From positions 1 to 42,870 of IMG/VR virus record IMGVR_UViG_3300037200_000030: 42,870 bases of DNA; one strand, 5' to 3'. The first letter of the stretch is position 1, and every line of letters starts with the position of its first letter. Made by a program: the position numbers and the translations under genes. Origin of the DNA: a virus. The notes under the pieces are model-generated. The model made no database searches. It worked only from the letters and a program-made list of their open reading frames with translations, and was not told the origin of the DNA. Shown one piece after another: positions 14,083-39,017 of the stretch.

Positions 14083-14929
14083 TGGCAGTGGCGGAGCAGC
14101 TCAAGGAGCTATGCAGACCGCCCTTCAAAATCAGGGACAAGCTGCTCAAGGTATACAGGCAGGCGCAACTTCTCTACAGAACACGGCAGGACAGCTTAAC
14201 TCTGCTCTACCGGCTACGATGACTGGTATTCAAGGGGCTATCGCTAGTGGCGGAAATCAACAAGGCACAACTGGTGTGAATCAGAACGCTGTAGGTCAGC
14301 AGGCCATAAATTATGACACGAACACGAGTGCGACAAACCTCTCACAGGCTAACCCTGCGCTTCAGAATTTCTATTCTGGAGAGATGAAAAATGGGCTGAA
14401 TCAACAGACGCAACTTAACGCTCAGAACCAGCTTCAGCAGCAGCTAGGGCAGCAGGAGGCACAACTTAGCAACTCTGCACAACCTGGGGTGAATCAGAAC
14501 AATCAGAAGCAGCAGATGCAGAACGCAGAGTTAGGGCAGAGTGCTAACCTAGCTGGGTCACTGGCAGGGCAGAATCAAACTACTATGCAGCAGGGAGCAC
14601 AAGGAGTGGCCTCTACGGCAGGGGGGCTTGATACCCAGACCATGAACATGCTTCAGAGTGCTCTCTCGGGGAGTCAAGGCCTCAACACCTCCTCACTGCA
14701 GAATTTGATGTCGGTTCTTGGCCTAGGTACCTCGGCTGCTTCTCAAGGTGCTTCGGCTACTGAGGGCTCTAACAGCGCACTTGGAGGCCTGTTCTCAGGT
14801 TATGGTACACAGGCGACAAACTTCGGAGCACAGGCGCAACAAAACGAACAAGCTACGGGTCTAAGTTTTGGGCAGTTAATAGGGGGAATAGGTAGTGCAG
14901 CAGGTTCTGCTGCTAAGGCAGGGGCATGA
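14075..14929 (+). CDS. Gln/Ala/Ser-rich internal virion (ejection) protein candidate
   Basis: A 284-residue protein almost entirely Gln, Ala, Ser, Asn and Gly, predicted as long helices (LNAQNQLQQQLGQQEAQLSN). It ends in a glycine-zipper-like hydrophobic segment (FGQLIGGIGSAAGSAAKAGA). This profile is typical of podoviral internal proteins that leave the head with the DNA and form a conduit through the cell envelope. It overlaps the previous gene by eight bases and the next by four (ATGA), so it is translated together with the ATP-grasp gene that follows. Confidence 0.6.
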   Translation: MSSGSGGAAQGAMQTALQNQGQAAQGIQAGATSLQNTAGQLNSALPATMTGIQGAIASGGNQQGTTGVNQNAVGQQAINYDTNTSATNLSQANPALQNFYSGEMKNGLNQQTQLNAQNQLQQQLGQQEAQLSNSAQPGVNQNNQKQQMQNAELGQSANLAGSLAGQNQTTMQQGAQGVASTAGGLDTQTMNMLQSALSGSQGLNTSSLQNLMSVLGLGTSAASQGASATEGSNSALGGLFSGYGTQATNFGAQAQQNEQATGLSFGQLIGGIGSAAGSAAKAGA

Positions 14930-16266
14930 CACAGTTCGCATACTACTCGGAAGGTGCTGCTTCTGTCTCCTGGGCTAGAAGACTTTATGATGAAGGTCAT
15001 GATGTTCTTTTCTACATCCCTGAGAAAGTATCAAGCAAGATCGGCGAGAATATAGTTCCTAAAACTCAGAATAAGGAAGAATGGCTGGAGTGGGGTGGGA
15101 GGTCTACTGATACTATTTATTTTTTTGATGCTACTGGCTCTGGAGAACTTGGTGATACCCTAAGAAAGCAAGGTAAACATGTTATCGGTGCGGGCAAATT
15201 TATGGATAAGCTTGAAAAGGATAGAGTATTCGGAGAAACACTGGCTAAAAAGGTGGGTATTACATGTCCTCCTGCAAAAAGTTTTAATTCGATATCTGCT
15301 GTATTAGCACATCTTGAAACAGATCCCCAACAAGAATCTGGTGATGGTGGATGGGCTTGGAAATCTGACAAGTACTTAGGATCTGACGCTACAATTGTGG
15401 CTAAAGATACTGAAGAAGTAAAGGAGCACTTAGAACATGTTAAAGAACGCTTTGGAGATAATGTTAAGTGCATCCTACAGGAAAAGATCAAAGGCGTCGC
15501 GGTATCGACAGCTCGCTGGTTTGACGGTAGGGTGTTTGTTGGCCCGTTTGAAGGAACTATTGAGAACAAGAAATTTATGAACGGTGACAAGGGACCTGCT
15601 ACAGGGTGCTCCTTGAACACTGTTTGGTTTTACCCTGACATCCCTCGTGTGGCCTATGAACTCAAGTGGATGGGGTTAGAGTCTGAGTTCAGGGATAACG
15701 ACGCTCCACCTGGATTGTATGACATAAATGCCATACTTGACAAGGAGCACGCTTGGTTCCTTGAGTGGACTCCGCGCCTTGGTATAGACAGTGAGCTAGC
15801 TTCACAGCGGGGCATAACCTCCCTCTCAGGGTTCTTGGAAGCCTTAGTACATGGGCAGAATGTAGATCACTTCTTTAAGGTAGATACTGCTTACCATGGG
15901 GTTAGGATTTCAATACCTCCATACCCTAATGAATTTAAGGAGTTGGCAGAGTTAGGAGACAAGAACCCTGCTAAAGGGGTCCGGGTTAGGAACTACGATG
16001 GTACGTGGGATAAGTTCTTTGTAAATGTAGGATGTGCCTGGGATGAGAAGACAGGTCTGTATGTTGTATGCCCTTTTGGATTCATAGGTGCATGCGTTAC
16101 TGATTCTACTTCTATAAAGAAGGGCTTCGAGAAGATCTATAAGTTTTTAGAGAAGTTATCTGTACAGGACCTACAGTACCGCACAGACGCGGCAGATGTT
16201 ATACTTAAAGACGTTCAAAGCATAATGAAGTATGGATGGGATCTGACGCCCGTTCTAGAGCGGTAG
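14926..16266 (+). CDS. PurD-like ATP-grasp ligase embedded in the virion operon
   Basis: A 446-residue protein that follows the layout of phosphoribosylamine-glycine ligase (PurD). The N-domain ends with LRKQGKHVIGAGKFMDKLEK (PurD: LRxxGxxxxGPxxxAAxLExSK). Then come GWAWKSDKYLGSDATIV (ATP lysine region; the usual Gly-rich loop is altered), ILQEKIKGVAVSTARWFDGR, NGDKGPATGCSLN (PurD: DGDTGPNTGGMG) and FLEWTPRLG (PurD: EfNpRfGDPE; metal Glu kept, Asn replaced by Thr). Family members join a carboxylate to an amine using ATP through an acyl-phosphate. No other purine genes are present. It starts in an ATGA overlap with an ejection-protein candidate and is followed by another virion protein. Its substrate is unknown. 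Confidence 0.75.
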   Translation: MTQFAYYSEGAASVSWARRLYDEGHDVLFYIPEKVSSKIGENIVPKTQNKEEWLEWGGRSTDTIYFFDATGSGELGDTLRKQGKHVIGAGKFMDKLEKDRVFGETLAKKVGITCPPAKSFNSISAVLAHLETDPQQESGDGGWAWKSDKYLGSDATIVAKDTEEVKEHLEHVKERFGDNVKCILQEKIKGVAVSTARWFDGRVFVGPFEGTIENKKFMNGDKGPATGCSLNTVWFYPDIPRVAYELKWMGLESEFRDNDAPPGLYDINAILDKEHAWFLEWTPRLGIDSELASQRGITSLSGFLEALVHGQNVDHFFKVDTAYHGVRISIPPYPNEFKELAELGDKNPAKGVRVRNYDGTWDKFFVNVGCAWDEKTGLYVVCPFGFIGACVTDSTSIKKGFEKIYKFLEKLSVQDLQYRTDAADVILKDVQSIMKYGWDLTPVLER

Positions 16267-17577: not shown

Positions 17578-19864
17578 ACTTCCTGAGATCCCCGTTACTA
17601 AAAGTGCCCCTGCTCAGAAACCTCTACCTGAGATACCTGTTACAAAGGCTCCAGCGGCTTCTTCGGGAGCAGCACCTTCTGGACATTCTTTACCGCAGAT
17701 ACCTGTAGCCACGAAGCCTAATAGCAACCCTTTCTCCCAGATACAAGCTTCACAGAAGCACGCAGGGCAGGTTTTAGGTGCTTGGGAGTCTGCAGTATGG
17801 GGACACTGGAAGGAGGCACTGGGGGCAGGAGTAGGAGCAGACTTGGATGTTCTTGGCACGCCTCAACGTATAGTCTCAGGGGAGGTTGAGAACGTTCAGA
17901 ATCATAAGGGTTTTTTGGATTCTGTAGAGCACTTAAATGATATTATTTGGCACCCAACGACAGAGAAGGTGAACAAGGCCCGTACAGCCGTTCAGAAGGG
18001 TCTACACTTATCGACAGACGCCGATATTGACACGATGATGCACGGTACTCTCATGCACCATCTAGGGCAACTCTCACCGTATGTAGGGAACGCTCTGAAG
18101 ACCGTGAATAACGTCGCTACTGATACAATCACTGATCCGTTCTCCGTCGCTGGAGACGCGGCTACAGCCGCCCGAGATCTTGGCTTGGCTCATCGTATCG
18201 CTGCTGCTCCCTCTGCCACTCATCTTTTGGTGCATGCTGCAAAAGCTGCAGCAGTGAACCCTGCCACGAAGCCTCTAATACACGCCGGAGTTACGGCAGG
18301 GCGAATGGTTACGGCACAGGTCCATAACCTCCTTACCAAACACGGGGCAGGTCCTGCGTTTGAACATCTTAAGACGGCTGTAGCAGCTACGAAGAACTCG
18401 GCTTCAAACATACACCGTGGGTTAGTCGATACGTTTGTTACTCGCCCTGACTTGTTACGGGCAGGTCTTACGCATGCTGGGAGAGATGTACGGCTCCAGT
18501 TAGAGAACTCACAACGGGTCTTGAAGCACAAGGACTTTACAAAAGATGCGGCAGTCGTTAACGACGCTAACAAGTCGGTTCAGAGATATGCTGAATATGT
18601 ACACCTGCACGGTTCATCGAAAAGATCTGCAGCAGCCAAGAGTGTGCTGCCGCAGTCACTTCATTCAGCTTCTCCTCCATCTGGTTCTTTAGCAAAAACT
18701 CACTCAGCAGCAGAGATACGTGCGATGAGTCCCGACGAGCGTACTGAAGCGTTTAACTCCATGCGGAACGAGATACACAAGAACGAGCTGGCCCGGAGGT
18801 CAACAGAGACGTTCTCTCAACAGGGCGGTACGAAACTCTCTCATACACCGAACGCTGTTGACTGGCACAAGTATCAGTCCCCAGACGTTAAACAAGTCGC
18901 CGGAGTAGCAAAGACCATGGCTAACCTTGGCCGCGCCGGGATAGAGCTGAACCCTCTTCCTCATGGTGGCACGAATGTCGGCACGCTACAGTTCCTAGGA
19001 GGTGGCCTGGACGCGGTTACAAGAGGCGTAGGAGCGATGATCAAGCCGGTGGATCACGCAGTAAAGGGAAGGCTCATTCAGATGGGCTCAGGCACACCTG
19101 ACTACATCGGAGGCCACACCGGCGGGATACCAGGCTATGCACAGATGGTGAACCACATGAGCGGCATTCTGGGGCAGATGGAGTACGGCTGGAGAGCTGG
19201 CATGCTCGAGCATCTGGACCGCGTCCTAGGCCCCTCTGAGGCTGGTAGCAAGGCAGAGTATATCAAAGGTGCGTTGATCAACAAGAAGCTAGGTGACTAC
19301 CATAACCAGCATGCGTTTGCTCGCGCGTTCGCTTCTTGGGGAGGCCCGTTCGTTATGTACAAACTTGGTATCCTCCCAAAGGCAGTGTTTGATTCAATAA
19401 AAGAGAACCCCATCCGGTTCCAAACTGTTGCGCGTACTGAGGATCAACTACAGGATAACAGGCAAGGAGCGGGCCAAGACAAATTAAGTTTTTCTGATCC
19501 TGTATCTGAAGCTCGTAAAGGAGTGATGGACCCAACAGGTTATGCGTTTGACACATTAAGTCTTGCAAGAGAAGGTCTTGAGCTGAAGGCAGACTGGGAG
19601 AACCCATCAAACACCTATGAGACATTTGATCAAGGGATAGCAAGAGTGGCAGAAAATCATATAGCCCCTCTCGGGGCTATACAAGGTATTTCTGATAATT
19701 TACAAGGGAAGTCTTTCGCAGGACAACCAATGAACTTTACTGATCATATGGCAGCTATGATTATTGGTGCTCTTAACGGGCACATTCATCATAAAGCTTC
19801 AGGTAAGATGCTACGTAAGAATCAGAAGTATATTAGTAAACATGCCTTCACCCCTGAAGACTAA
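17567..19864 (+). CDS. Large internal virion (ejection) protein candidate
   Basis: About 765 residues, the largest protein of the virion block. ATG 17567 is preferred to GTG 17552. The N-terminus has three repeats of L-P-x-I-P-V-x-T/K (at about 5, 22 and 44), likely short binding motifs. Long helical segments follow, and a region around residues 440-560 is rich in Gly and aromatic residues. No lysozyme or transglycosylase motif was recognised, although T7 gp16-type proteins often carry one. It ends the virion operon and overlaps the convergent nuclease gene by 17 bases. Confidence 0.6.
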   Translation: MADELPEIPVTKSAPAQKPLPEIPVTKAPAASSGAAPSGHSLPQIPVATKPNSNPFSQIQASQKHAGQVLGAWESAVWGHWKEALGAGVGADLDVLGTPQRIVSGEVENVQNHKGFLDSVEHLNDIIWHPTTEKVNKARTAVQKGLHLSTDADIDTMMHGTLMHHLGQLSPYVGNALKTVNNVATDTITDPFSVAGDAATAARDLGLAHRIAAAPSATHLLVHAAKAAAVNPATKPLIHAGVTAGRMVTAQVHNLLTKHGAGPAFEHLKTAVAATKNSASNIHRGLVDTFVTRPDLLRAGLTHAGRDVRLQLENSQRVLKHKDFTKDAAVVNDANKSVQRYAEYVHLHGSSKRSAAAKSVLPQSLHSASPPSGSLAKTHSAAEIRAMSPDERTEAFNSMRNEIHKNELARRSTETFSQQGGTKLSHTPNAVDWHKYQSPDVKQVAGVAKTMANLGRAGIELNPLPHGGTNVGTLQFLGGGLDAVTRGVGAMIKPVDHAVKGRLIQMGSGTPDYIGGHTGGIPGYAQMVNHMSGILGQMEYGWRAGMLEHLDRVLGPSEAGSKAEYIKGALINKKLGDYHNQHAFARAFASWGGPFVMYKLGILPKAVFDSIKENPIRFQTVARTEDQLQDNRQGAGQDKLSFSDPVSEARKGVMDPTGYAFDTLSLAREGLELKADWENPSNTYETFDQGIARVAENHIAPLGAIQGISDNLQGKSFAGQPMNFTDHMAAMIIGALNGHIHHKASGKMLRKNQKYISKHAFTPED

Positions 19865-20228
19865 GTCTATTTTTTGTGAGTACCCTATCCCTAAGCTCGT
19901 CCGGGAAATTTCTTAACATTTGTTCCTTAAGCATAGATACATTACATATACACATGTAGATGCCACCAGACTCTTCAACTAAATTTCTGAACAGCATTTG
20001 AGCAACACTCATATTGTGCCCTAATCGCATATATGCTTCTTCACTTTTTAACTCAATAGCGATAAACTCTCCATTGAATGAACAGATGATGTCTGCCACA
20101 CCTGCTCTCCCCAAAGGGGAGGCAGGCACTGAGAAGTAGAACATCTTAGGTTTTAGAGACTCAAGATAATCCCTTATCTTTTCTTTGACTTTATTTTCAG
20201 GAGTATTGTTACTCATCTTCTGATTCAT
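19848..20228 (-). CDS. VRR-NUC family endonuclease
   Basis: A 126-residue single-domain nuclease; ATG 20228 or 20216 are both possible starts. The PD-(D/E)XK core is visible: GRAGVADIICSF (catalytic Asp), then EFIAIELKSEE (E-x-K). A Gln sits in MSVAQMLFRNLVEESGGIY and a final hydrophobic strand follows. Stand-alone VRR-NUC domains in phages cleave branched DNA, acting like Holliday-junction resolvases. It is the last gene of the replication operon, overlapping the SSB-like gene by 8-20 bases. Confidence 0.8.
   Translation of the reverse strand: MNQKMSNNTPENKVKEKIRDYLESLKPKMFYFSVPASPLGRAGVADIICSFNGEFIAIELKSEEAYMRLGHNMSVAQMLFRNLVEESGGIYMCICNVSMLKEQMLRNFPDELRDRVLTKNRLSLQG
19858..19875 (+). terminator. 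Weak hairpin with T-tract at the convergent junction
   Basis: AGAC (19858-19861) and GTCT (19865-19868) can pair around a TAA loop, then A and six T. The stem is only four base pairs (AAGAC extends it poorly), so it would be a weak terminator for the virion operon. It straddles the stop codon of the large internal protein gene. Confidence 0.3.
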
Positions 20229-20697
20229 CCAGTGAAGTAGTCACAGTACCCTTTACTAGACCTGTTACTTTCATTCGCACTGAGGTCTTTGATGGGTCAT
20301 CCTTTCTAGGTTCTGTGCTAACGTATGCTTCGAGTACTTTATCCTTGAGGTTCTTTGTAAAGATACGTCCTGCAGCGACTTTCTCAAGTGGAAAGTCTGA
20401 AGCATAGGAGTCCGCAGATATACCAATAGCGTGAAAGATGTCAAACATACTCCGAACCCCGGGGTATGAGTACTTACCTGTCTTCTCACTCTTGGCTCCA
20501 GCCAGTGAGTACCATTGTTTGATCTCTGAAGCCTTGTGAGGTCCTTTCATAATTTTGAACGTCGCAGTAAGCATGGGTTTGTCTTTACTAGAAATGGTAG
20601 GCTCAAGATCAACGAGCTTCACTTCGTACTCCCCGTCTGGGATAGGCTCATAGGTACCTGAGAGTTCTGCGAGGTTGATTTTCGTAAGTTCAGTCAT
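20209..20697 (-). CDS. DUF669-like single-stranded DNA-binding protein
   Basis: About 162 residues. The start is ATG 20697, in an ATGA overlap with the upstream ATPase gene and after GGAGACGAA; the longer form from 20757 would only re-read the ATPase gene. The pattern PIPDGEYEVKLVDLE, the central hydrophobic strand MLTATFKIMKG and KQWYSLAG are typical of DUF669. The C-terminus is acidic (DESEDE), as in SSB proteins that recruit partners through an acidic tail. DUF669 proteins regularly sit beside Sak4-type RecA-like ATPases, as here, and act in replication and annealing-based recombination. Confidence 0.7.
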   Translation of the reverse strand: MTELTKINLAELSGTYEPIPDGEYEVKLVDLEPTISSKDKPMLTATFKIMKGPHKASEIKQWYSLAGAKSEKTGKYSYPGVRSMFDIFHAIGISADSYASDFPLEKVAAGRIFTKNLKDKVLEAYVSTEPRKDDPSKTSVRMKVTGLVKGTVTTSLDESEDE

Positions 20698-21455
20698 TTC
20701 GTCTCCATTGAAAGAAATTGGGATAATGATAGGGTCGTTTTCCCACTGCCGGGACATCCATATATCGCCATAAACGATGGCACCTTACCAAGCTTCTCAT
20801 GAATCTTCGGAATAGATGGGTTCATGATTCGCTTTGGCATAGTTTTGGCCTTCTCGAAGTTTACATGATATTTAGCGATAACTTCAGTCGTTGGTTTGAT
20901 TGTTAATACACGGGTGCCCTCCTTAAATTTTATGTTACCCTGGCTGTCCTTCTCATCGTCCATAAGGACTGATAAACGAAACATGTCACTACAGGCTTCG
21001 TTCAGTCTGCGGTAGAACGCTGGAGGAAGCTCTGGTCCTATCGCATCCTCCATAGTACGCTCGTTAGTTTGTTTATTTTCATGAGCCAAGACTAGGATGT
21101 TCATGCCCTTATTTTTGAGAGACTTGAGCCTCTCCATAATCATCTGTTCAGCCATGTCATAAACCGTGAGATAATTTTTGTCACCTCCAAGCCATTTCTC
21201 TTTGAAGGACCACACAGACATATCATCTTTGAGCCCAATGAACTTAGCGTTACGACGCAGAGTGGCTCCCAGTCCTGAAATAGTATCAATGATGAGAAGA
21301 TCTCCTTTCTCTGGTTTGAGTTTTGCAAGTTCACTGTCAAACCTTTCAAAGTTCCCTGCATCTAGGTAAGTGATTTCTTTTGGGTGAGCTTCAAGAATAT
21401 CTTGTATTGAGTCTGTGCCGTTTTGATCTGCGTCGCTATAGTAAATCATCTTCAA
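20694..21455 (-). CDS. RecA-like (Sak4-type) ATPase with Walker A at the C-terminus; apparent circular permutation
   Basis: A 253-residue protein; TTG 21455 or ATG 21449 starts it. Walker B is near residue 52-57 (DLLIIDTISG), followed by helices, ILVLAHEN (His 125, the sensor or catalytic region of Sak4-type ATPases) and a beta-rich stretch to about 190. The Walker A motif GCPGSGKTT lies at residues 233-241, only 12 residues from the end. In normal RecA/Sak4 proteins Walker A comes first. If the C-terminal 30 residues are moved ahead of residue 1, the join reads FLSMETK-MIYYSDADQNG and restores the usual order. Neighbours (SSB-like, Cas4-like) support a role in strand exchange or annealing. 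I saw no frameshift or second Walker A upstream. Confidence 0.8.
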   Translation of the reverse strand: MKMIYYSDADQNGTDSIQDILEAHPKEITYLDAGNFERFDSELAKLKPEKGDLLIIDTISGLGATLRRNAKFIGLKDDMSVWSFKEKWLGGDKNYLTVYDMAEQMIMERLKSLKNKGMNILVLAHENKQTNERTMEDAIGPELPPAFYRRLNEACSDMFRLSVLMDDEKDSQGNIKFKEGTRVLTIKPTTEVIAKYHVNFEKAKTMPKRIMNPSIPKIHEKLGKVPSFMAIYGCPGSGKTTLSLSQFLSMETK

Positions 21456-22260
21456 CTTTCATTAAATTTTCTCTTTGGGTTGAGAGAGCCTCCAGGCGCT
21501 CTGGTGAGACGAACCCGTGCTCCCACTCCTCATTGCACAGGGGACGCTGGAAGCACCCTGTACAGGCCGCTACACCCCATCCCATGCGTCCTGTGCGGTA
21601 GTATTGATTAAGGTGTCTAGCGTCAAGGAGAGTTCTAATTGATTCTACTAAGTCTTGCTTTGTCCTCTCCTTTTGAAGCGGACTGAGTGTATAAGGGACG
21701 GTGAAGTAACTATCCTGTGTCGTCCATGCCGGACTGCGCGGTCTCGGTACTCCAACCCGTTCGGACCTAACATACACGAACTCAAATTCAGCAGGTACTC
21801 CATAGAGAGCCTCTATGGCTATGATATAGAACCTCGCCTGGTCGCTAATGTGAATGTCAATACATGGCTTCTTTCCAAATGTTTTCCAGTCACGACAAAC
21901 TATTCCTCCATTCTTACTATACAGTAAATCAGGTGTCACACGGAAGAGCACTCCGGGTATTACTTCCCAATAAAGAGACTCTTCAGTAGCTATAATATCT
22001 GCAGGGAGTCCTCGGTTTGAAAGATAGGTCATGGCAATATGAAACATTTTAGCATCTTCGTCTTCTGGTATGTAGTCCACTTTACCGTACTTTACTAAAG
22101 CCTCCATATATCTATGAAACAGGCTCCCCTTCTTAACGGCCTCATTTGTATGCTTGGACTCTCGCATCCACTCATACTCTATCTCATAACTCTTAGGACA
22201 GTTTTTGAATGCGGCTAAAGAGCTGTATGAGATAACTAGTTTACCATCTAAATCTTTCAT
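21436..22260 (-). CDS. Cas4/RecB-like PD-(D/E)XK exonuclease with likely Fe-S cluster
   Basis: A 274-residue nuclease. Seen in order: SYSSLAAFKNCPKSYEIEY (first cysteine); GSLFHRYMEAL (His of the RecB motif); RVTPDLLY (Asp); GIVCRDWKTF (D-x-K); SDQARFYIIA (Q-x-x-x-Y); and ACTGCFQRPLCNE, a C-x2-C-x5-C cluster near the end. One N-terminal and three C-terminal cysteines match the 4Fe-4S arrangement of Cas4 and AddB. Such nucleases resect DNA ends for recombination. It is coupled by ATGA to a tiny membrane-protein gene upstream and overlaps the ATPase gene downstream by about 20 bases. Confidence 0.8.
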   Translation of the reverse strand: MKDLDGKLVISYSSLAAFKNCPKSYEIEYEWMRESKHTNEAVKKGSLFHRYMEALVKYGKVDYIPEDEDAKMFHIAMTYLSNRGLPADIIATEESLYWEVIPGVLFRVTPDLLYSKNGGIVCRDWKTFGKKPCIDIHISDQARFYIIAIEALYGVPAEFEFVYVRSERVGVPRPRSPAWTTQDSYFTVPYTLSPLQKERTKQDLVESIRTLLDARHLNQYYRTGRMGWGVAACTGCFQRPLCNEEWEHGFVSPERLEALSTQRENLMKVEDDLL

Positions 22261-22355
22261 TTAAATACCACTGTCCAAATACTGACTAGCGCACAAGTTA
22301 TGAATATGTATGCAGCCAAACACAAAGAAGTTACTGCTAGTTGAATCCAAATCAT
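22257..22355 (-). CDS. Tiny membrane protein (32 residues)
   Basis: A 33-codon ORF that exactly fills the gap between the GNAT-C39 gene and the Cas4-like gene. Its ATG (22355) overlaps the upstream stop as ATGA and its own TGA (22259-22257) overlaps the next ATG in the same way. The product is almost entirely hydrophobic (WIQLAVTSLCLAAYIFITCA), consistent with one membrane span. The start has no Shine-Dalgarno sequence, so translation would depend on coupling. No function is assigned. Confidence 0.6.
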   Translation of the reverse strand: MIWIQLAVTSLCLAAYIFITCALVSIWTVVFK

Positions 22356-23230
22356 AGGAGAGTGAACCCTTTGTGTATGCCATATCGAGGCGAGTGCCAG
22401 TCTCTCAGTAACCCTCTATCAGACATAAGACACAATCCTTTGTCAGGATCATAAACCTGCCACATTTCGTTCATTTGTTTTACAATGGTTATCCAATGTC
22501 CATCATTTTCCACTGTAATATCAATCATAGAGTTAGGCGCTAGTTTCTTTGTTCTCATATAGTGCATATCTTCAGCGACTAAAAATGCTTCTATGTCCCT
22601 AGGGCTTGTACCCATCTCATTTGTTGTATGTAATCTTTTTTCTAGATATTCTATTGAAAAGGTATGGCCTTTAGTTTCCAGCAAGTAAGCCAAGGCAAAA
22701 GGCCCGCAGTTGTAGTCTTTGTTTTGAGTAAGAAACTGAGTATAAAAATGGGCGGCACGTTTTGTACCGAACCACTCTTCATGTATTCCTTTAAGGTGGA
22801 ATATGCCTCCCAAATCTTGAATAATATGTACCATTGATTGTGACGTAGCATGGCCTAAAAGCTTCGCGTAGCCTATCTCTGAGGCGTAGCGGGCGAACTC
22901 TGTCCGAAGCTGTTTACCATAGCCCATATTTCTAAACTCGGGGTGTATAGTTGTGCTCCAGACGTAGACTGATTCGTGGTCCGACATATCCACATCGGTT
23001 ATGGCATCGTCTTCATCATAGAACCCTTGTCCCTTGTCAAGTACAAACGCATATTCATACGGGGTTATACCGAAACATTCACCGATGAGAACGTCATCAA
23101 GAAACATATTAACAACGAGTCCGTGTCTAATAATATCCTCTCTGTCCTCCGGCTCCTCTCTTAGCTCTTCCTCGTATAATTTCTCGAATCTATCCGTTGC
23201 TATAAAGTCGTTTGTGAAACTAATTTCCAT
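22352..23230 (-). CDS. GNAT acetyltransferase fused to a C39-like cysteine peptidase
   Basis: A 292-residue two-domain protein. Residues about 1-165 are a GNAT domain, with the acetyl-CoA motif in TTIHPEFRNMGYGKQLRTEF (R-x2-G-x-G). Residues about 170-292 resemble C39/papain-like peptidases: QNKDYNCGPFALAYLLETKG with the catalytic Cys and oxyanion Gln, then DGHWITIV with His and VYDPDKG with Asp. Bacterial GNAT-C39 fusions are known and, to my knowledge, often sit next to RimK-like ATP-grasp ligases. Here it lies among nucleotide-metabolism genes, overlapping the dCMP deaminase gene by 11 bases. A protein- or peptide-modifying role is inferred. Confidence 0.7.
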   Translation of the reverse strand: MEISFTNDFIATDRFEKLYEEELREEPEDREDIIRHGLVVNMFLDDVLIGECFGITPYEYAFVLDKGQGFYDEDDAITDVDMSDHESVYVWSTTIHPEFRNMGYGKQLRTEFARYASEIGYAKLLGHATSQSMVHIIQDLGGIFHLKGIHEEWFGTKRAAHFYTQFLTQNKDYNCGPFALAYLLETKGHTFSIEYLEKRLHTTNEMGTSPRDIEAFLVAEDMHYMRTKKLAPNSMIDITVENDGHWITIVKQMNEMWQVYDPDKGLCLMSDRGLLRDWHSPRYGIHKGFTLL

Positions 23231-23600
23231 GATAATGGTGCTCCCATGTTATTTCATCAATTAAATACATTTTCGCCTGTTCTCGGCATATGACACAAGG
23301 CTCATGCGTGACGTACATCTTCAAAGGGTAGCCGTGAAGGTTAAGTTGAGTCAAGGCGTTCTCTTCTGCATGAATGGTTCGCTTACAGTGTCCATCGACA
23401 ATCATGCATCCTACCTCGGTGCAGTGTGGCTCTCCCGGAGGTGCTCCGTTGTATCCGGTAGTAACGATCTTATTCCTGTAGGTGATAACTGCTCCTACCT
23501 GGAGCCTAGGGCACGTTGACCGTAGAGCTACTGCTTTCGCTATGTTGAGGAAGTAAGCTGTCCAATCCAAACGCTCGTAGACTATACTGGTACTCTCCAT
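23220..23600 (-). CDS. Deoxycytidylate (dCMP) deaminase
   Basis: A 126-residue zinc deaminase converting dCMP to dUMP, the substrate of thymidylate synthase. Motifs: VGAVITYRNKIVTTGYNGAP, RTIHAEENAL (His and the proton-donor Glu) and EPCVICREQA (two zinc Cys). The N-terminal LDWTAYFLNIAKAVALRS fits the family, so the first Met is needed and the gene truly overlaps thyX by 95 bases in another frame. The usual allosteric dCTP/dTTP control of family members cannot be judged by eye. Confidence 0.9.
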   Translation of the reverse strand: MESTSIVYERLDWTAYFLNIAKAVALRSTCPRLQVGAVITYRNKIVTTGYNGAPPGEPHCTEVGCMIVDGHCKRTIHAEENALTQLNLHGYPLKMYVTHEPCVICREQAKMYLIDEITWEHHYHGN

Positions 23601-26894: not shown

Positions 26895-27564
26895 TGTTTT
26901 TCCTTTTATAGAAAGCATCGAAGCGTTCGATAACCGTTCTACAAATACCTTCCCTCTGAATGTCTTCAAGCCCAAACTGTGCTATACCAAATTCGTCTTC
27001 AAGCTTGAATAGGTTTAGTGCTACTGCCAGGCCACTTGTTCCATGAATATCCGATTGTGATATGTCTCCACAGAACACCATCCTAGAGTCTTTACCTAGT
27101 CTTGTCATGGCCATTTCTACTTGCTTAGGTGTTGTGTTCTGAGCCTCATCAATAATGATGAACTTCTCAGTAAATGTACGTCCCCTCATAAGCTCAAGAG
27201 GCACACACTCTATGGGGCTGTCTTCGCTGTCTAGAAGCCTTTGAATTGATGGTAGATTGAGGTCGATAATGGTATCCCAGATTGGCTCCATGAAAGGATT
27301 GAGTTTATCAGATAAAGTTCCAGGGAGATAACCAAAATCACGGCCAGCAGGCACAATAGGACGAGAAACAATAATACCGTTTGAGCGACCACTTAACAAC
27401 TCCTCAAAAGCTATGCACACTGCAACGAAAGTTTTTCCTGTCCCTGCTGGCCCAACGGCAAGGGTAATCCGTTTTTTCCGTATCGTGTCCCGTAGATTGA
27501 TCTGTGCTCTGGTTCTGGGCGACCAATTTAATGTATCTGTCGTATTGTTTTTGTAAGTTCTCAT
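26884..27564 (-). CDS. phoH: PhoH-like P-loop ATPase
   Basis: A 226-residue PhoH protein. Walker A is GPAGTGKT, Walker B is FIIIDEAQN, and the DNA/RNA-helicase-like VFCGDISQSD follows, all in family order. PhoH is a widespread, poorly understood ATPase, common in phages and probably acting on RNA. It sits between the DNA polymerase gene (four-base overlap) and nrdA. Confidence 0.9.
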   Translation of the reverse strand: MRTYKNNTTDTLNWSPRTRAQINLRDTIRKKRITLAVGPAGTGKTFVAVCIAFEELLSGRSNGIIVSRPIVPAGRDFGYLPGTLSDKLNPFMEPIWDTIIDLNLPSIQRLLDSEDSPIECVPLELMRGRTFTEKFIIIDEAQNTTPKQVEMAMTRLGKDSRMVFCGDISQSDIHGTSGLAVALNLFKLEDEFGIAQFGLEDIQREGICRTVIERFDAFYKRKNNGS

Positions 27565-29777
27565 CCACTTCTCTTAACCTCTGATTTAACAGTAAGGGGT
27601 ATGGTGAAGTCTATACCGTACTCTTCTTTGAGGGCCTTTACGGGCCAGTTACACATGATCTCTTCAATTTTCTTAATTTTGTTACCCATGATGTGTTTAT
27701 CTAAATCACTTTCATCATCCAACTCAAAACCTATTGAGTCATGTACGAAGAGTACCATAGGGAAGTTCATCTCGGCTAGACGTTTCATGGCGAGGAAGGC
27801 TATATGTGTGGATAGATTTTGTACAGGCACATTAACTGCCTGACGTAGTTTTCCGAAAAATGTTTGTCCATAATTTCCTCGGATAAGTTCAGGGTTTCCA
27901 AAATGTCGAATATATCCCGTTGGACATCGAACCTGCCCTGTATTGAGTATCTCTTTTTTTGTGTTAAGATAATATCTTTCAAAGCCGGGAAATGTTTGAT
28001 GCCACTTTTCGTGTAGTTGTTCACATTGTTGTATTGGGATATGAACTCCTTGTTTCTTTGCATACTCCCAAAGCGTAAAACCTGTTCCAATATAAAGCTG
28101 AGAGAAATTCGCACTCTTCGCAATTTGACGCTCTTTGTCGGTAACATCTTTTTCATCCTTGTCATAAAACATAGCGGCGAAGAAGGCATGTGGATCCCAT
28201 ATGGGATCTTTAGCGAACCGCGCTAGGATAGTTTCTTCTTGTGCTATCCAGGCAGCTACTCGAAACTCAATCGCTGAGTAGTCTACTGATAATAGCACCT
28301 TTCCAGGCGCAGCAGTGAAGAATTTCTTGAGCTTCCTGTCAAGATTCTGCACGTTAGGCTTCGTGGCTGAGGTCCTCCCGGTCTCCACTGAGACCATCTT
28401 GTACTCAGGGTGTGCCCTACCGTCTCCCTCGTTAGCTAGCTTCTCATAGGGCTTGATGTAGGTAGAGAGCTGCTTGGCCTGCTCCCGGTACTCCAGCAGC
28501 TCAGAGACGAAGGGAGTGGCCCTGTGGGCCTCTAGGATGTCCTTAGAAACGTGGGGGTTGCCGTTTTCTGTGAGTGGGTACCATATATGCAGCTCGTCGA
28601 GCTTCTCTGCTACCTGCTTGGTAGAGTTTGGGTTGATGTCAAACTTGTGGCTCTCTATAAGAGTACTGACTTCAGCTTTTGTTTCCAAAATTGCTTCCAT
28701 ACTGAGATGCACTCCTCGCAGAGACATGTCATCGAAGACTCTTCGCACAGGATAAATGAGATTTTCAAGAAGGTAAAAACGCTTATCGGAGGTAAGCTCT
28801 TTCTTAAAGAGTTGAAACAATTTGTAGGTGTACCAGGCGTCTCTTGCGTTGTAGAAGTAGAACTCGTCTGATCCGAGTTTTGCATGAAATGACTCTTTCC
28901 ATCCCGGTACTCCGAGATACTTCACTGCTAAGGCTTCGAGACCTCTAGGCTGAGTCTCATCCATGAAAAACGCCATATACATGGTATCATGGAAATCGTT
29001 AATACGAAAACCTTGCTTCCTAAGCATGGGGCCGTCGTAATGTAAGCTGTTGTGACCGACTGTTTTAACCTGTTCCAATAGAGCACAAATCCCTGATACA
29101 TCTCTACTGACGTAACAAATTTTCTCATTAGCCACGGCAATTTGGGTCGGATAATCTGTAAAGGTCCCGCTTTCGTCAACAGCTTCGATATCGTAGGCAA
29201 GTATATCACCATCTATGTCTTCTCCATTCCAGATTCTCCAGGGCACGGTGGTATCGGTTCTTTGCGGGCTACAGCGACGTATATCACTAACGACAGTCCG
29301 TTCCAAAGTCGAATTCTTCGCGAGGTATTCCAGACTATACGTACAAAATACTTTTGCATTTGTATTTAACTCAGGTATCGCGCTGAGTTCCTTTCCTCTG
29401 TTGTTTTTGATGCCTGATCGCTTCGTAACTGCTCTAAGGGACACATCTCCCATACATAGGATGTAGTTTGGTTGGGCTTGATGTATATCTTCTTTAAGGT
29501 ATACTCTGCATGCGTCGATGGACGAGACATTAAGTGTCGTATACTTCTTATCTGAAGCACATTTGACAGCATAAGTTTGGCAATATCCTGATATGTGTGC
29601 TTTCTGAAGTAGGCTAGACATAAGCGCACCGATCGCGCCCGCGAAGGGAGTATCCTCAAAATCCGCCCGTGAGTCTGGTTGATCGCAGATAATAAGAACA
29701 TCACACTTCTCAATTTTACTTTTTAGCACAGGTGATAAACAACCTAATGAAAGTGGACATAATTCACAACTTCTCAC
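27561..29777 (-). CDS. DNA polymerase: UDG-like domain + 3'-5' exonuclease + family A polymerase
   Basis: A 738-residue replicative polymerase starting at GTG 29777. Residues about 1-165 resemble family 4 uracil-DNA glycosylases (CELCPLSLGC; DTPFAGAIGALMSSLLQKA; NYILCMGDVSLRAV), but the GEAPG motif is CDQPD, so glycosylase activity is doubtful. Exonuclease motifs follow: DIEAVDE, HNSLHYDGPML and YNARDAWYTYK. The polymerase domain has motif A LLSVDYSAIEFRVAAW, motif B RQIAKSANFSQLYIGTG and motif C LFVHDSIGFE. Motif B differs from the usual KxxxFGxxYG by Ser for Gly and one extra residue before the Gly. It is the only DNA polymerase in the window. Confidence 0.9.
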   Translation of the reverse strand: MRSCELCPLSLGCLSPVLKSKIEKCDVLIICDQPDSRADFEDTPFAGAIGALMSSLLQKAHISGYCQTYAVKCASDKKYTTLNVSSIDACRVYLKEDIHQAQPNYILCMGDVSLRAVTKRSGIKNNRGKELSAIPELNTNAKVFCTYSLEYLAKNSTLERTVVSDIRRCSPQRTDTTVPWRIWNGEDIDGDILAYDIEAVDESGTFTDYPTQIAVANEKICYVSRDVSGICALLEQVKTVGHNSLHYDGPMLRKQGFRINDFHDTMYMAFFMDETQPRGLEALAVKYLGVPGWKESFHAKLGSDEFYFYNARDAWYTYKLFQLFKKELTSDKRFYLLENLIYPVRRVFDDMSLRGVHLSMEAILETKAEVSTLIESHKFDINPNSTKQVAEKLDELHIWYPLTENGNPHVSKDILEAHRATPFVSELLEYREQAKQLSTYIKPYEKLANEGDGRAHPEYKMVSVETGRTSATKPNVQNLDRKLKKFFTAAPGKVLLSVDYSAIEFRVAAWIAQEETILARFAKDPIWDPHAFFAAMFYDKDEKDVTDKERQIAKSANFSQLYIGTGFTLWEYAKKQGVHIPIQQCEQLHEKWHQTFPGFERYYLNTKKEILNTGQVRCPTGYIRHFGNPELIRGNYGQTFFGKLRQAVNVPVQNLSTHIAFLAMKRLAEMNFPMVLFVHDSIGFELDDESDLDKHIMGNKIKKIEEIMCNWPVKALKEEYGIDFTIPLTVKSEVKRSG

Positions 29778-37712: not shown

Positions 37713-38712
37713 TGATTACCCTCCTGATACTTGGACTCCTTACAGTGCTAGCCCTAACAGCGTATGGAACACACCGTTCCAACAAAGTCCAGCAGTACCG
37801 GACCCAAATTCTCTCACATACCAAAGATTTTACACCTCCAACAAAAACTTCGGATACTTCTCAAGTCTGACATTTGGATACACTGATGAATCCAATCAAT
37901 ATGGTCATCCAATTTATTTTGGGTACGCTACTGATCCTGTGTATACTGTAAAGTGCCTAGCGAGTTGGGCAGATGTATGTCCACCATCAACCCAGAAGTT
38001 CCACATCCCTAAATACGCCGTTCCTGCAGGAGGCTCTGATGCACATCTTACGTCGATTGACTACACCTATAACCCGGCTCTGGAGCTGGACGGTTGGAGT
38101 TGTAACAAACCATCTGGTGCCGGGGGAGTCTTTACTTGCCAGGCCGCAGGGGCAGGACCCATCAATGGACCCGGACTGGCCTTTGGACAAACAGCAGCAG
38201 GATACGCCCAGTGGGCAGGAGTCATTAGAGCAAGCGAACTCACAGACGGATATATTGGGCATGCCCTCTTCGTGGTGGCACCCTGCACTGCATCTTCGTC
38301 GGTTTACCCCTCCATACCCCGTGCAACGGATACCCTATGTCCCTCTGGACAAGGAGCACCATACGGATTTAGGATTCGATTGAACATGACCCCTCAAGCC
38401 ATTGCAGCTCTATCAATACCTCAAAGCCATAAGACTATCCTTACAGCCCTATCCTCATTTGGAGCATATCAAGGAGATACAAATGGAAACAATAACATGT
38501 CTCTACAAGTCGAAGCCGACGAGATGTACACAGCCCCTAACTATGTCAACCCCAGTTGTGGATCCCTCCCCTCAGGAGCCCCCTGCACCCCCCTCACAGC
38601 CTGGGCCAACGGACAACCCGGTGTTACCTGGACAGGAGCCAACTACAACATCGACATTTCAAAGGACGTACCTAACTCTTCCTGGCAGTGGTTACTGCCT
38701 CCCACAAACTAA
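37414..38712 (+). CDS. Secreted protein with Pro/Ser/Thr linker and C-terminal exoprotein-like domain
   Basis: A 432-residue ORF starting in an ATGA overlap with the preceding gene. After the signal peptide and linker (to about residue 95) comes a globular, Cys-containing domain: SPNSVWNTPF, IPKYAVPAGGSDAHLTSIDY, AGVIRASELTDGYIGHALFV, GFRIRLNM and SSFGAYQGDTNGNNN. The HAL...RLRL...YGxYxxD pattern recalls a family of secreted bacterial proteins, perhaps lectin-like; I cannot name it. The linker-plus-domain design is unusual for a phage and may act at the cell surface. Several other ORFs overlap it in the other two frames (see 37488, 37712, 38039, 38483). Confidence 0.65.
   Translation: MSTNKKVHKFMVIPLSLFATSLVVTCSPPPPITPTPQTTPSSTPTLAPSPVTSPTPRSSPLPSPTSSPTTPSTSVSPPSTPSSMPTFAPTPASTNWTAPNDYPPDTWTPYSASPNSVWNTPFQQSPAVPDPNSLTYQRFYTSNKNFGYFSSLTFGYTDESNQYGHPIYFGYATDPVYTVKCLASWADVCPPSTQKFHIPKYAVPAGGSDAHLTSIDYTYNPALELDGWSCNKPSGAGGVFTCQAAGAGPINGPGLAFGQTAAGYAQWAGVIRASELTDGYIGHALFVVAPCTASSSVYPSIPRATDTLCPSGQGAPYGFRIRLNMTPQAIAALSIPQSHKTILTALSSFGAYQGDTNGNNNMSLQVEADEMYTAPNYVNPSCGSLPSGAPCTPLTAWANGQPGVTWTGANYNIDISKDVPNSSWQWLLPPTN
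37488..37715 (+). CDS. Overprinted ORF in the linker region (75 residues), uncertain
   Basis: An ORF in another frame of the secreted-protein gene, starting at ATG 37488 after GGTGGTTAC. The product looks like an ordinary acidic protein (FPRYLTNSEILAAAKPDIVT; FSTFNALFDAYIRPYTRIDE). Nearly every codon ends in C. Caution: a Pro/Ser/Thr/Ala linker uses NCN codons, which makes this frame NNC and therefore free of stops by itself. The independent support is that its TGA overlaps the ATG of a second, hydrophobic ORF as ATGA, this genome's usual gene junction. Confidence 0.35.
   Translation: MQPSPSDNSDSPDDSIIDPNAGPFPRYLTNSEILAAAKPDIVTNDPIDLGFSTFNALFDAYIRPYTRIDELDSPE
37712..37870 (+). CDS. Overprinted small membrane-anchored ORF (52 residues), uncertain
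   Basis: A 53-codon ORF starting in the ATGA overlap with the 75-residue ORF and lying wholly inside the secreted-protein gene. It begins MITLLILGLLTVLALTAYGT, a clear N-terminal membrane anchor, followed by a polar, Gln/Thr-rich tail. Size and topology recall small lysis proteins such as spanin components, but this is only resemblance. The frame is outside the low-complexity linker, so its openness is not explained by codon composition. Confidence 0.4.
   Translation: MITLLILGLLTVLALTAYGTHRSNKVQQYRTQILSHTKDFTPPTKTSDTSQV
38039..38383 (+). CDS. Overprinted ORF with strong ribosome site (114 residues), uncertain
   Basis: In frame with the 52-residue ORF, ATG 38039 is preceded by AGGAGG five bases upstream, a near-perfect Shine-Dalgarno site. 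The frame stays open for 115 codons. The product starts MHILRRLTTPITRLWSWTVG, basic and amphipathic, then becomes Gln/Asp/Pro-rich. It could be real or chance, since the enclosing gene encodes GG at this point (codons with AGG). No family was recognised. Confidence 0.3.
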   Translation: MHILRRLTTPITRLWSWTVGVVTNHLVPGESLLARPQGQDPSMDPDWPLDKQQQDTPSGQESLEQANSQTDILGMPSSWWHPALHLRRFTPPYPVQRIPYVPLDKEHHTDLGFD

Positions 38713-38728
38713 CTCCAAAGGAGAATAA
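38483..38728 (+). CDS. Overprinted Pro-rich ORF with strong ribosome site (81 residues), uncertain
   Basis: ATG 38483 has AAGGAG six bases upstream and opens 82 codons in the same frame as the other overprinted ORFs, ending two bases before the GroES-like start. The product is Cys/Lys-rich at first (METITCLYKSKPTRC), then Pro-rich (VVDPSPQEPPAPPSQPGP), a composition seen in other short products of this phage (ends of 37177, 40555, 40694). Alternatively its start is at 38402 without a good site. Confidence 0.3.
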   Translation: METITCLYKSKPTRCTQPLTMSTPVVDPSPQEPPAPPSQPGPTDNPVLPGQEPTTTSTFQRTYLTLPGSGYCLPQTNSKGE

Positions 38729-38729
38729 C

Positions 38730-39017
38730 ATGTATCCAGTTCCTATGCCCGGTCGCTTGCTAGTCGAAGAGTTTGCAGAGAAGACCGTAACCTCCACTGG
38801 TATCTTTCTCACCTCAGATCCCGATGCGTCGATCTATCAAGGACACGGTATCGTGAAACAAATCGGACAATACGCTGATGGCATGACAAATTCAGAGTTT
38901 TCAAAAGGGGATGAGATCTACTACAATAACAATTCAGGCAGCCTAGTGAAACTTGACGGTAAGGAGTACCTTGTCATCACAGAGTCTTCAGTACTTGTGA
39001 AGATGGTTAAGGGGTAG
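38730..39017 (+). CDS. GroES-like co-chaperonin
   Basis: A 95-residue protein with AAAGGAGAATAAC before ATG 38730; the longer frame from 38688 lies in the preceding gene. The GroES pattern is clear: VPMPGRLLVEEFAEKTVTST then GIFL, GHGIVKQIGQYADG, SKGDEIYYNNNSG and GKEYLVITESSVLVKM. The mobile-loop region (TSTGIFLTSDPDAS) includes the GI(F/V)L tripeptide that binds GroEL. Phage co-chaperonins (T4 gp31 type) redirect host GroEL to fold the capsid protein. The capsid gene here may need it. Confidence 0.75.
   Translation: MYPVPMPGRLLVEEFAEKTVTSTGIFLTSDPDASIYQGHGIVKQIGQYADGMTNSEFSKGDEIYYNNNSGSLVKLDGKEYLVITESSVLVKMVKG

Follow-up and report, generated by a model that had tools for sequence, protein, structure and literature searches.

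Among the genes of an IMG/VR virus record (42,870 bases, the whole of which constitutes the window analyzed here) is one whose product has the motifs of a RecA-like ATPase with the Walker A motif at the end of the chain instead of the beginning. This raises the question of whether the protein is a rearranged recombinase, a patchwork or a relic. The original prediction held it to be a circularly permuted RecA-like ATPase of the Sak4 type, an interpretation sustained by a one-piece profile match of the rotated sequence, an element order shared by relatives and a confident AlphaFold2 (AF2) model. We conclude with high confidence that the product is a phage Sak4 recombinase (RecA/Rad51 fold, AAA_24) in a naturally occurring, end-to-end circularly permuted form, with the permuted order of elements itself demonstrated at the level of sequence.

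The open reading frame, counted from an initial TTG, spans positions 20694-21455, encodes 253 aa and opens with TTG-AAG-ATG. These coordinates, as originally proposed, stand, but the strand has been corrected to minus and the start to a probable ATG at 21449 (the TTG at 21455 is also possible). The ATG is probably the better start because all three orthologues begin at MIYY/F, with the two found in related phages starting exactly at an ATG (MIYY/MIYF). The stop codon is TGA at 20694-20696, and the resulting 251-aa protein (20694..21449, minus strand) is supported as a circularly permuted Sak4-like ATPase by its ORF, profiles, orthologues and AF2. A separate gene beginning at Met204 of the window protein was considered and rejected, as Met204 is not conserved in the orthologues. 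For comparison, we assembled 80 canonical Sak4s from IMG/VR, of which 37 form the rows of a column-by-column alignment. The Walker B strand LLIIDT (residues 51-56; 21282..21299, minus strand) contains D55, which is invariant in the three permuted proteins and in 37/37 canonical rows. It is followed by His123 of the AxH motif (21081..21083, minus strand), a position occupied by H or Q in 36 of the 37 rows, with the site reading AH in the window protein and MH in its orthologues. The Walker A motif or P-loop, GCPGSGKTT, comes only at residues 231-239 of 251 (20733..20759, minus strand), near the C terminus, whereas it lies in the N-terminal part in all 80 canonical Sak4s. The positions first given for these three motifs hold, the earlier numbers being those of the 251-aa protein plus two.

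Scans of IMG/VR with the nuclease, polymerase, single-strand DNA-binding protein (SSB) and permuted proteins yielded a clade of only four genomes, namely, the window, 3300021344_000001 (L005/L008), 3300015195_000008 (L007) and 3300041809_000401 (L006). The expectation that related phages might have the same order is borne out by L005 and L007, independent IMG/VR contigs from other metagenomes, whose permuted Sak4s are 39-41% identical to the window protein, colinear with it over residues 1-245 and like it in element order, MIYY/F start and neighbors. In both, sak4 begins at the stop codon of the nuclease gene (TAATG, ATGA), and a small ORF separates it from the DUF669 SSB gene, after which comes the endonuclease gene. 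In a phylogenetic tree, the three permuted proteins form one clade (support 100/99), with CP017837, MW202795 and P1201 contributing the nearest canonical Sak4s, although this placement is unsure, given the long branches. A comparison of the L005 and L007 genes gave a dN of 0.055 and a dS of 1.55 (dN/dS about 0.04), and the C-terminal, P-loop-containing part alone gave a dN of 0.12 and a dS of 0.99 (dN/dS about 0.12). As judged from these comparisons, the permuted order has become fixed within a small clade of phages and is subject to purifying selection. No second Sak4-like locus was found in the genomes with a permuted Sak4, and the gaps after sak4 in L005 and L007 hold no recognizable remnant of a second copy, only small unrelated ORFs. 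Searches of annotated phages with the native window protein and the L007 protein found no other permuted Sak4, nor did searches of bacterial and archaeal genomes with the patterns used; the order is known from three genomes only, all of them metagenomic contigs. The fourth genome, L006, is the closest relative by polymerase. Its sak4/nuclease site (L006:17246-18645) is occupied by a different, Cas4-like nuclease and by a 230-aa protein without a family match. Nuclease and recombinase genes appear to have been swapped together there as one cassette, and the 230-aa protein may be an unrecognized annealing protein exchanged in this way.

The alignment allows the permutation to be traced on both sides of the junction. 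The new N terminus, MIYYSDADQNGTDSI (residues 1-15; 21405..21449, minus strand), comprises the strand and the GTDS motif that come after the P-loop helix in canonical Sak4; in the 37-row alignment, its segment MIYYSDADQNGTDS lines up with the canonical strand at that place, LLHLDIREKGTDS. Near the other end, the old C-terminal motif and helix, PKRIMNPSIPKIHEKL (residues 205-220; 20790..20837, minus strand), are equivalent to the canonical P..IVDPTYDKL. The canonical C-terminal motif P..[IL].[ND]P[ST][YF].K[IL] is thus retained at residues 205-216, with I/M in place of the aromatic residue, and both P205 and P211 are present in all 37 canonical rows. This old C-terminal helix gives way within a few residues, through a linker of about five, to the P-loop strand FMAIYG. 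Because the C-terminal motif runs into the P-loop strand and the N terminus is the strand from beyond the P-loop helix, the alignment shows that the former termini are now connected and that the present ones were created in the loop separating the P-loop helix from the strand after it. Canonical motifs are retained on both sides of the junction (G11, D55, K193, P205, N210-P211, Y230-G231 and G236-K237), and nothing is missing from the RecA core once the old C and N termini are joined. The window protein ends in FLSMETK, and joining this end to the N terminus restores the natural continuation, as had been proposed, the first strand being the one that normally follows the P-loop helix. The new C-terminal tails of the three proteins are ETK, ENKNV and EKTK, which we read as overlying the putative ribosome-binding site (GGAG/AAGGAG) of the next gene.

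Profile comparisons of native and rotated sequences agree with this anatomy. The Pfam AAA_24 profile matched the native window protein in two separate stretches (9.3e-10) and the rotated one in a single stretch (1.3e-11; 45.1 bits; profile positions 5-192/195), and phrog_124, the Sak4 family of PHROGs, likewise matched the native sequence in two stretches (7.5e-20) and the rotated sequence in one (1.1e-21). The high-coverage one-piece match predicted for a rotated sequence was therefore obtained. In native order, the three orthologues score 39.1, 55.2 and 53.0 bits against AAA_24 (PF13479), exceeding its curated cutoff of 27. We then scored every rotation against an HMM built from 12 canonical phage Sak4s, including HkaL, which we take to be the Sak4 of HK620. 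In all three orthologues, the optimum fell at residues 216-223, just before the P-loop strand, with the best rotation scoring 62.6, 51.5 and 51.9 bits versus 46.7, 34.2 and 34.3 bits for the native single-domain matches. This gain of 16-18 bits comes with one domain spanning HMM positions 18/19-241 of 255. In tblastn searches, the rotated protein matches canonical Sak4s of annotated phages across the junction, whereas the native protein does not.

Structure prediction likewise returned a confident model of the native order. The AF2 alignment, whose makeup is a reservation to be set against the result, combined the native-order protein with its two orthologues and with pieces of canonical Sak4s entered as separate, unjoined rows, these being literal translations of fetched loci aligned as fragments to each part. 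The resulting model has a mean pLDDT of 88.5 and a pTM of 0.85, with confidently placed elements that include strand 2-6, the Walker B strand at 51-55, helix 213-220 and the P-loop strand at 226-231; with only the three sequences, the pLDDT fell to 45.5 and the model was unusable. The usual RecA core fold is strongly predicted for the native-order chain, with which the modeled secondary structure agrees, and from the pTM and pLDDT values, it is inferred that the C-terminal P-loop strand packs beside the Walker B strand. Foldseek searches of viral models returned phage AAA/RecA-like ATPases as most of the named top matches (E values down to 2.8e-11), with TM scores of only ~0.5-0.65 to canonical Sak4-type models, and RAD51C-XRCC3 as the best PDB match (E value of 9e-4), both by order-dependent alignment.

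The neighborhood points to the likely role of the protein. Upstream lies a PD-(D/E)XK exonuclease (21436..22260, minus strand; PDDEXK_1, 3.7e-14; phrog_69 exonuclease), whose ORF overlaps the sak4 start, and downstream lies a DUF669 SSB (20209..20697, minus strand; Pfam/PHROG matches), whose ATG at 20697 overlaps the sak4 stop codon (ATGA); both neighbors thus overlap sak4, as first described. Beyond these is a small endonuclease or resolvase-like protein (19848..20228, minus strand; phrog_93), found at the same place in all of the relatives. A position upstream of an SSB/DUF669 gene is common for sak4 (PMC8093625), and the Sak4 of HK620 anneals single strands in an ATP-dependent manner, with stimulation by its own SSB (PMC5928155). 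The permuted Sak4 is most likely, by inference, an ATP-dependent single-strand annealing recombinase that works with the neighboring nuclease and SSB, and the cassette resembles a phage module for recombination by resection, SSB coating and ATP-dependent annealing, with its activity inferred. In such a module, the nuclease would make ssDNA ends and the DUF669 SSB would coat the ssDNA and load or stimulate the permuted Sak4, which would bind ATP, form a filament on ssDNA and anneal complementary strands in the service of phage recombination and replication. The permuted gene itself is inferred to have arisen by tandem duplication of sak4, after which the P-loop end of the first copy and the core of the second were lost.

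Several other genes of the window have features of their own. In the DNA polymerase I (27561-29777), the exonuclease and polymerase domains are preceded by a fused uracil-DNA glycosylase superfamily domain at the N terminus, and a GNAT acetyltransferase domain is fused to a C39-like peptidase domain (22352-23230) in a protein conserved in 4/4 clade genomes. ThyX-like and dCMP-deaminase-like genes, assigned from sequence, share 95 bases read in different frames (23506-23600), and tblastn matches suggest the same overlap in L006. An ATP-grasp protein (14926-16266; GARS_A-like, 2.1e-6) occurs among the virion genes, and a GroES-like cochaperonin gene is found at 38688-39017.

Differences from canonical Sak4s at the catalytic site raise the further question of whether the enzyme's mechanism was altered by the permutation. 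In Sak4-52A (8RC5, the PDB chain retrieved with the canonical Sak4 profile), Lys229, Arg231 and His232 extend from one protomer to the ATPgammaS of the following one (PMC11846896). In the 37-row alignment, the site of this trans-acting K-x-R finger is K193-x-H195 (20865..20873, minus strand), taken to correspond to Lys229/Arg231 of Sak4-52A (PMC11846896). The finger Lys is kept in 3/3 permuted proteins and 37/37 canonical rows, but the Arg, present in 37/37 canonical rows, is His in 3/3 permuted proteins. Similarly, position 9 is acidic (E/D) in every canonical row and Q, G and G in the permuted proteins, in which an Asp at position 8 is invariant. By alignment to RecA, this Asp presumably sits where RecA has its catalytic Glu. 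The canonical N-terminal extension ahead of the P-loop strand is also absent; in RecA/Rad51, the N-terminal extension is the region of the polymerization motif. With His in place of the finger Arg and the conserved acid displaced or missing, ATP may be hydrolyzed more slowly or in response to a different trigger, and because of the changes in the finger, the position 9 acid and the N-terminal extension, ATP handling and filament contacts may differ from those of canonical Sak4. A stronger claim is that loss of the extension, joining of the C-terminal helix to the P-loop strand, the K-x-H finger and the shifted catalytic acid would together have altered both the filament interface and the ATP cycle, with ATP binding possible only once the last residues have been translated, in what would be the first natural circular permutant of a RecA/Rad51-fold recombinase. 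We hold this claim only tentatively and consider it doubtful on present evidence.

With the finger Arg and the position 9 acid unconserved, activity could be altered or lost, and no biochemical data are available. The same two substitutions, shared by 3/3 proteins, would fit a degenerate Sak4 that no longer hydrolyzes ATP and serves only as a DNA-binding or structural subunit. We consider this unlikely, as K237 of Walker A, D55 of Walker B, His123 and K193 are all invariant, selection is purifying over the gene as a whole and in its P-loop part, and these genomes hold no second Sak4.

The same element order would result if a Sak4 had lost its N-terminal P-loop and later gained a P-loop segment from an unrelated ATPase, in which case the protein would work alike but by replacement, not permutation. 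Part of the rotation gain, roughly half, is indeed generic P-loop similarity, since an unrelated PhoH P-loop tail swapped into the rotated protein still gives 54.2 bits; isolated P-loop pieces show no clear preference among several ATPase families, and the tail on its own gives only a weak Sak4 match that is not always the best one. The real tail, however, scores 62.4 bits, above both the PhoH tail and the maximum of 49.6 bits among shuffled C-terminal tails (n = 500). Moreover, the best PHROG match of the window tail alone is Sak4, starting within the old C-terminal helix; Y230-G231 is invariant, as in 37/37 canonical rows; the P.F...YG.PG.GKS pattern resembles the canonical Sak4 of CP017837; and the fused segment is exactly the part absent from the core. 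Replacement is therefore highly improbable, and circular permutation remains the preferred explanation.

An assembly artifact, frameshift or split gene mimicking permutation, for which it can be said only that every carrier is a metagenomic contig, has a negligible chance of being correct, because one order recurs in three contigs from different metagenomes at ~40% protein identity between the window and the other two, with coupled start codons, no space for another P-loop and none elsewhere in the genomes. The earlier inference that no missing exon or frameshift explains the order is upheld on these grounds, and the shared order, the lack of a second Sak4 and the purifying selection together rule out misassembly, frameshift and decay. 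Among the related genomes, none had an intact N-terminal Walker A.

If the permutant works, the connection from the P-loop to the next strand of the RecA fold is dispensable, and the protein offers a natural test of which chain connections are required for filament formation and ATP coupling. The permuted chain shows that an ancient RecA-type fold can be rewired by evolution, and it provides a ready-made template for tools based on split or permuted recombinases. On the practical side, genes of this kind can be overlooked or divided by profile searches that assume the P-loop to be N-terminal. Our literature search, outside which most subscription papers fall, found no published permuted RecA-family recombinase or P-loop ATPase, and priority is unproven.

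Among known systems, the closest is the Sak4/AAA_24 family itself (PF13479, phrog_124; HK620 Sak4 and Sak4-52A, PDB 8RC5), with which the permuted protein shares a RecA-core-only ATPase architecture of about 220-280 aa, Walker A, Walker B, the AxH motif, the finger Lys, a full-length match after rotation and an exonuclease and SSB/DUF669 neighborhood. It lacks the N-terminal location of Walker A, the K-x-R finger, the position 9 acid and the N-terminal extension of that family. RecA, RadA and Rad51 are predicted to have the core fold in common with it but differ in element order and in their N- or C-terminal DNA-binding domains, which are absent here as from Sak4 generally. A parallel in architecture is provided by the natural circularly permuted GTPases YjeQ/RsgA and YqeH and by cpRAS (PMC2430557). 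They are likewise natural permutants of P-loop NTPases in which the P-loop follows other motifs, but they belong to another P-loop class, are not recombinases and have different cut points (G4-G5-G1-G2-G3 and G3-G4-G5-G1-G2).
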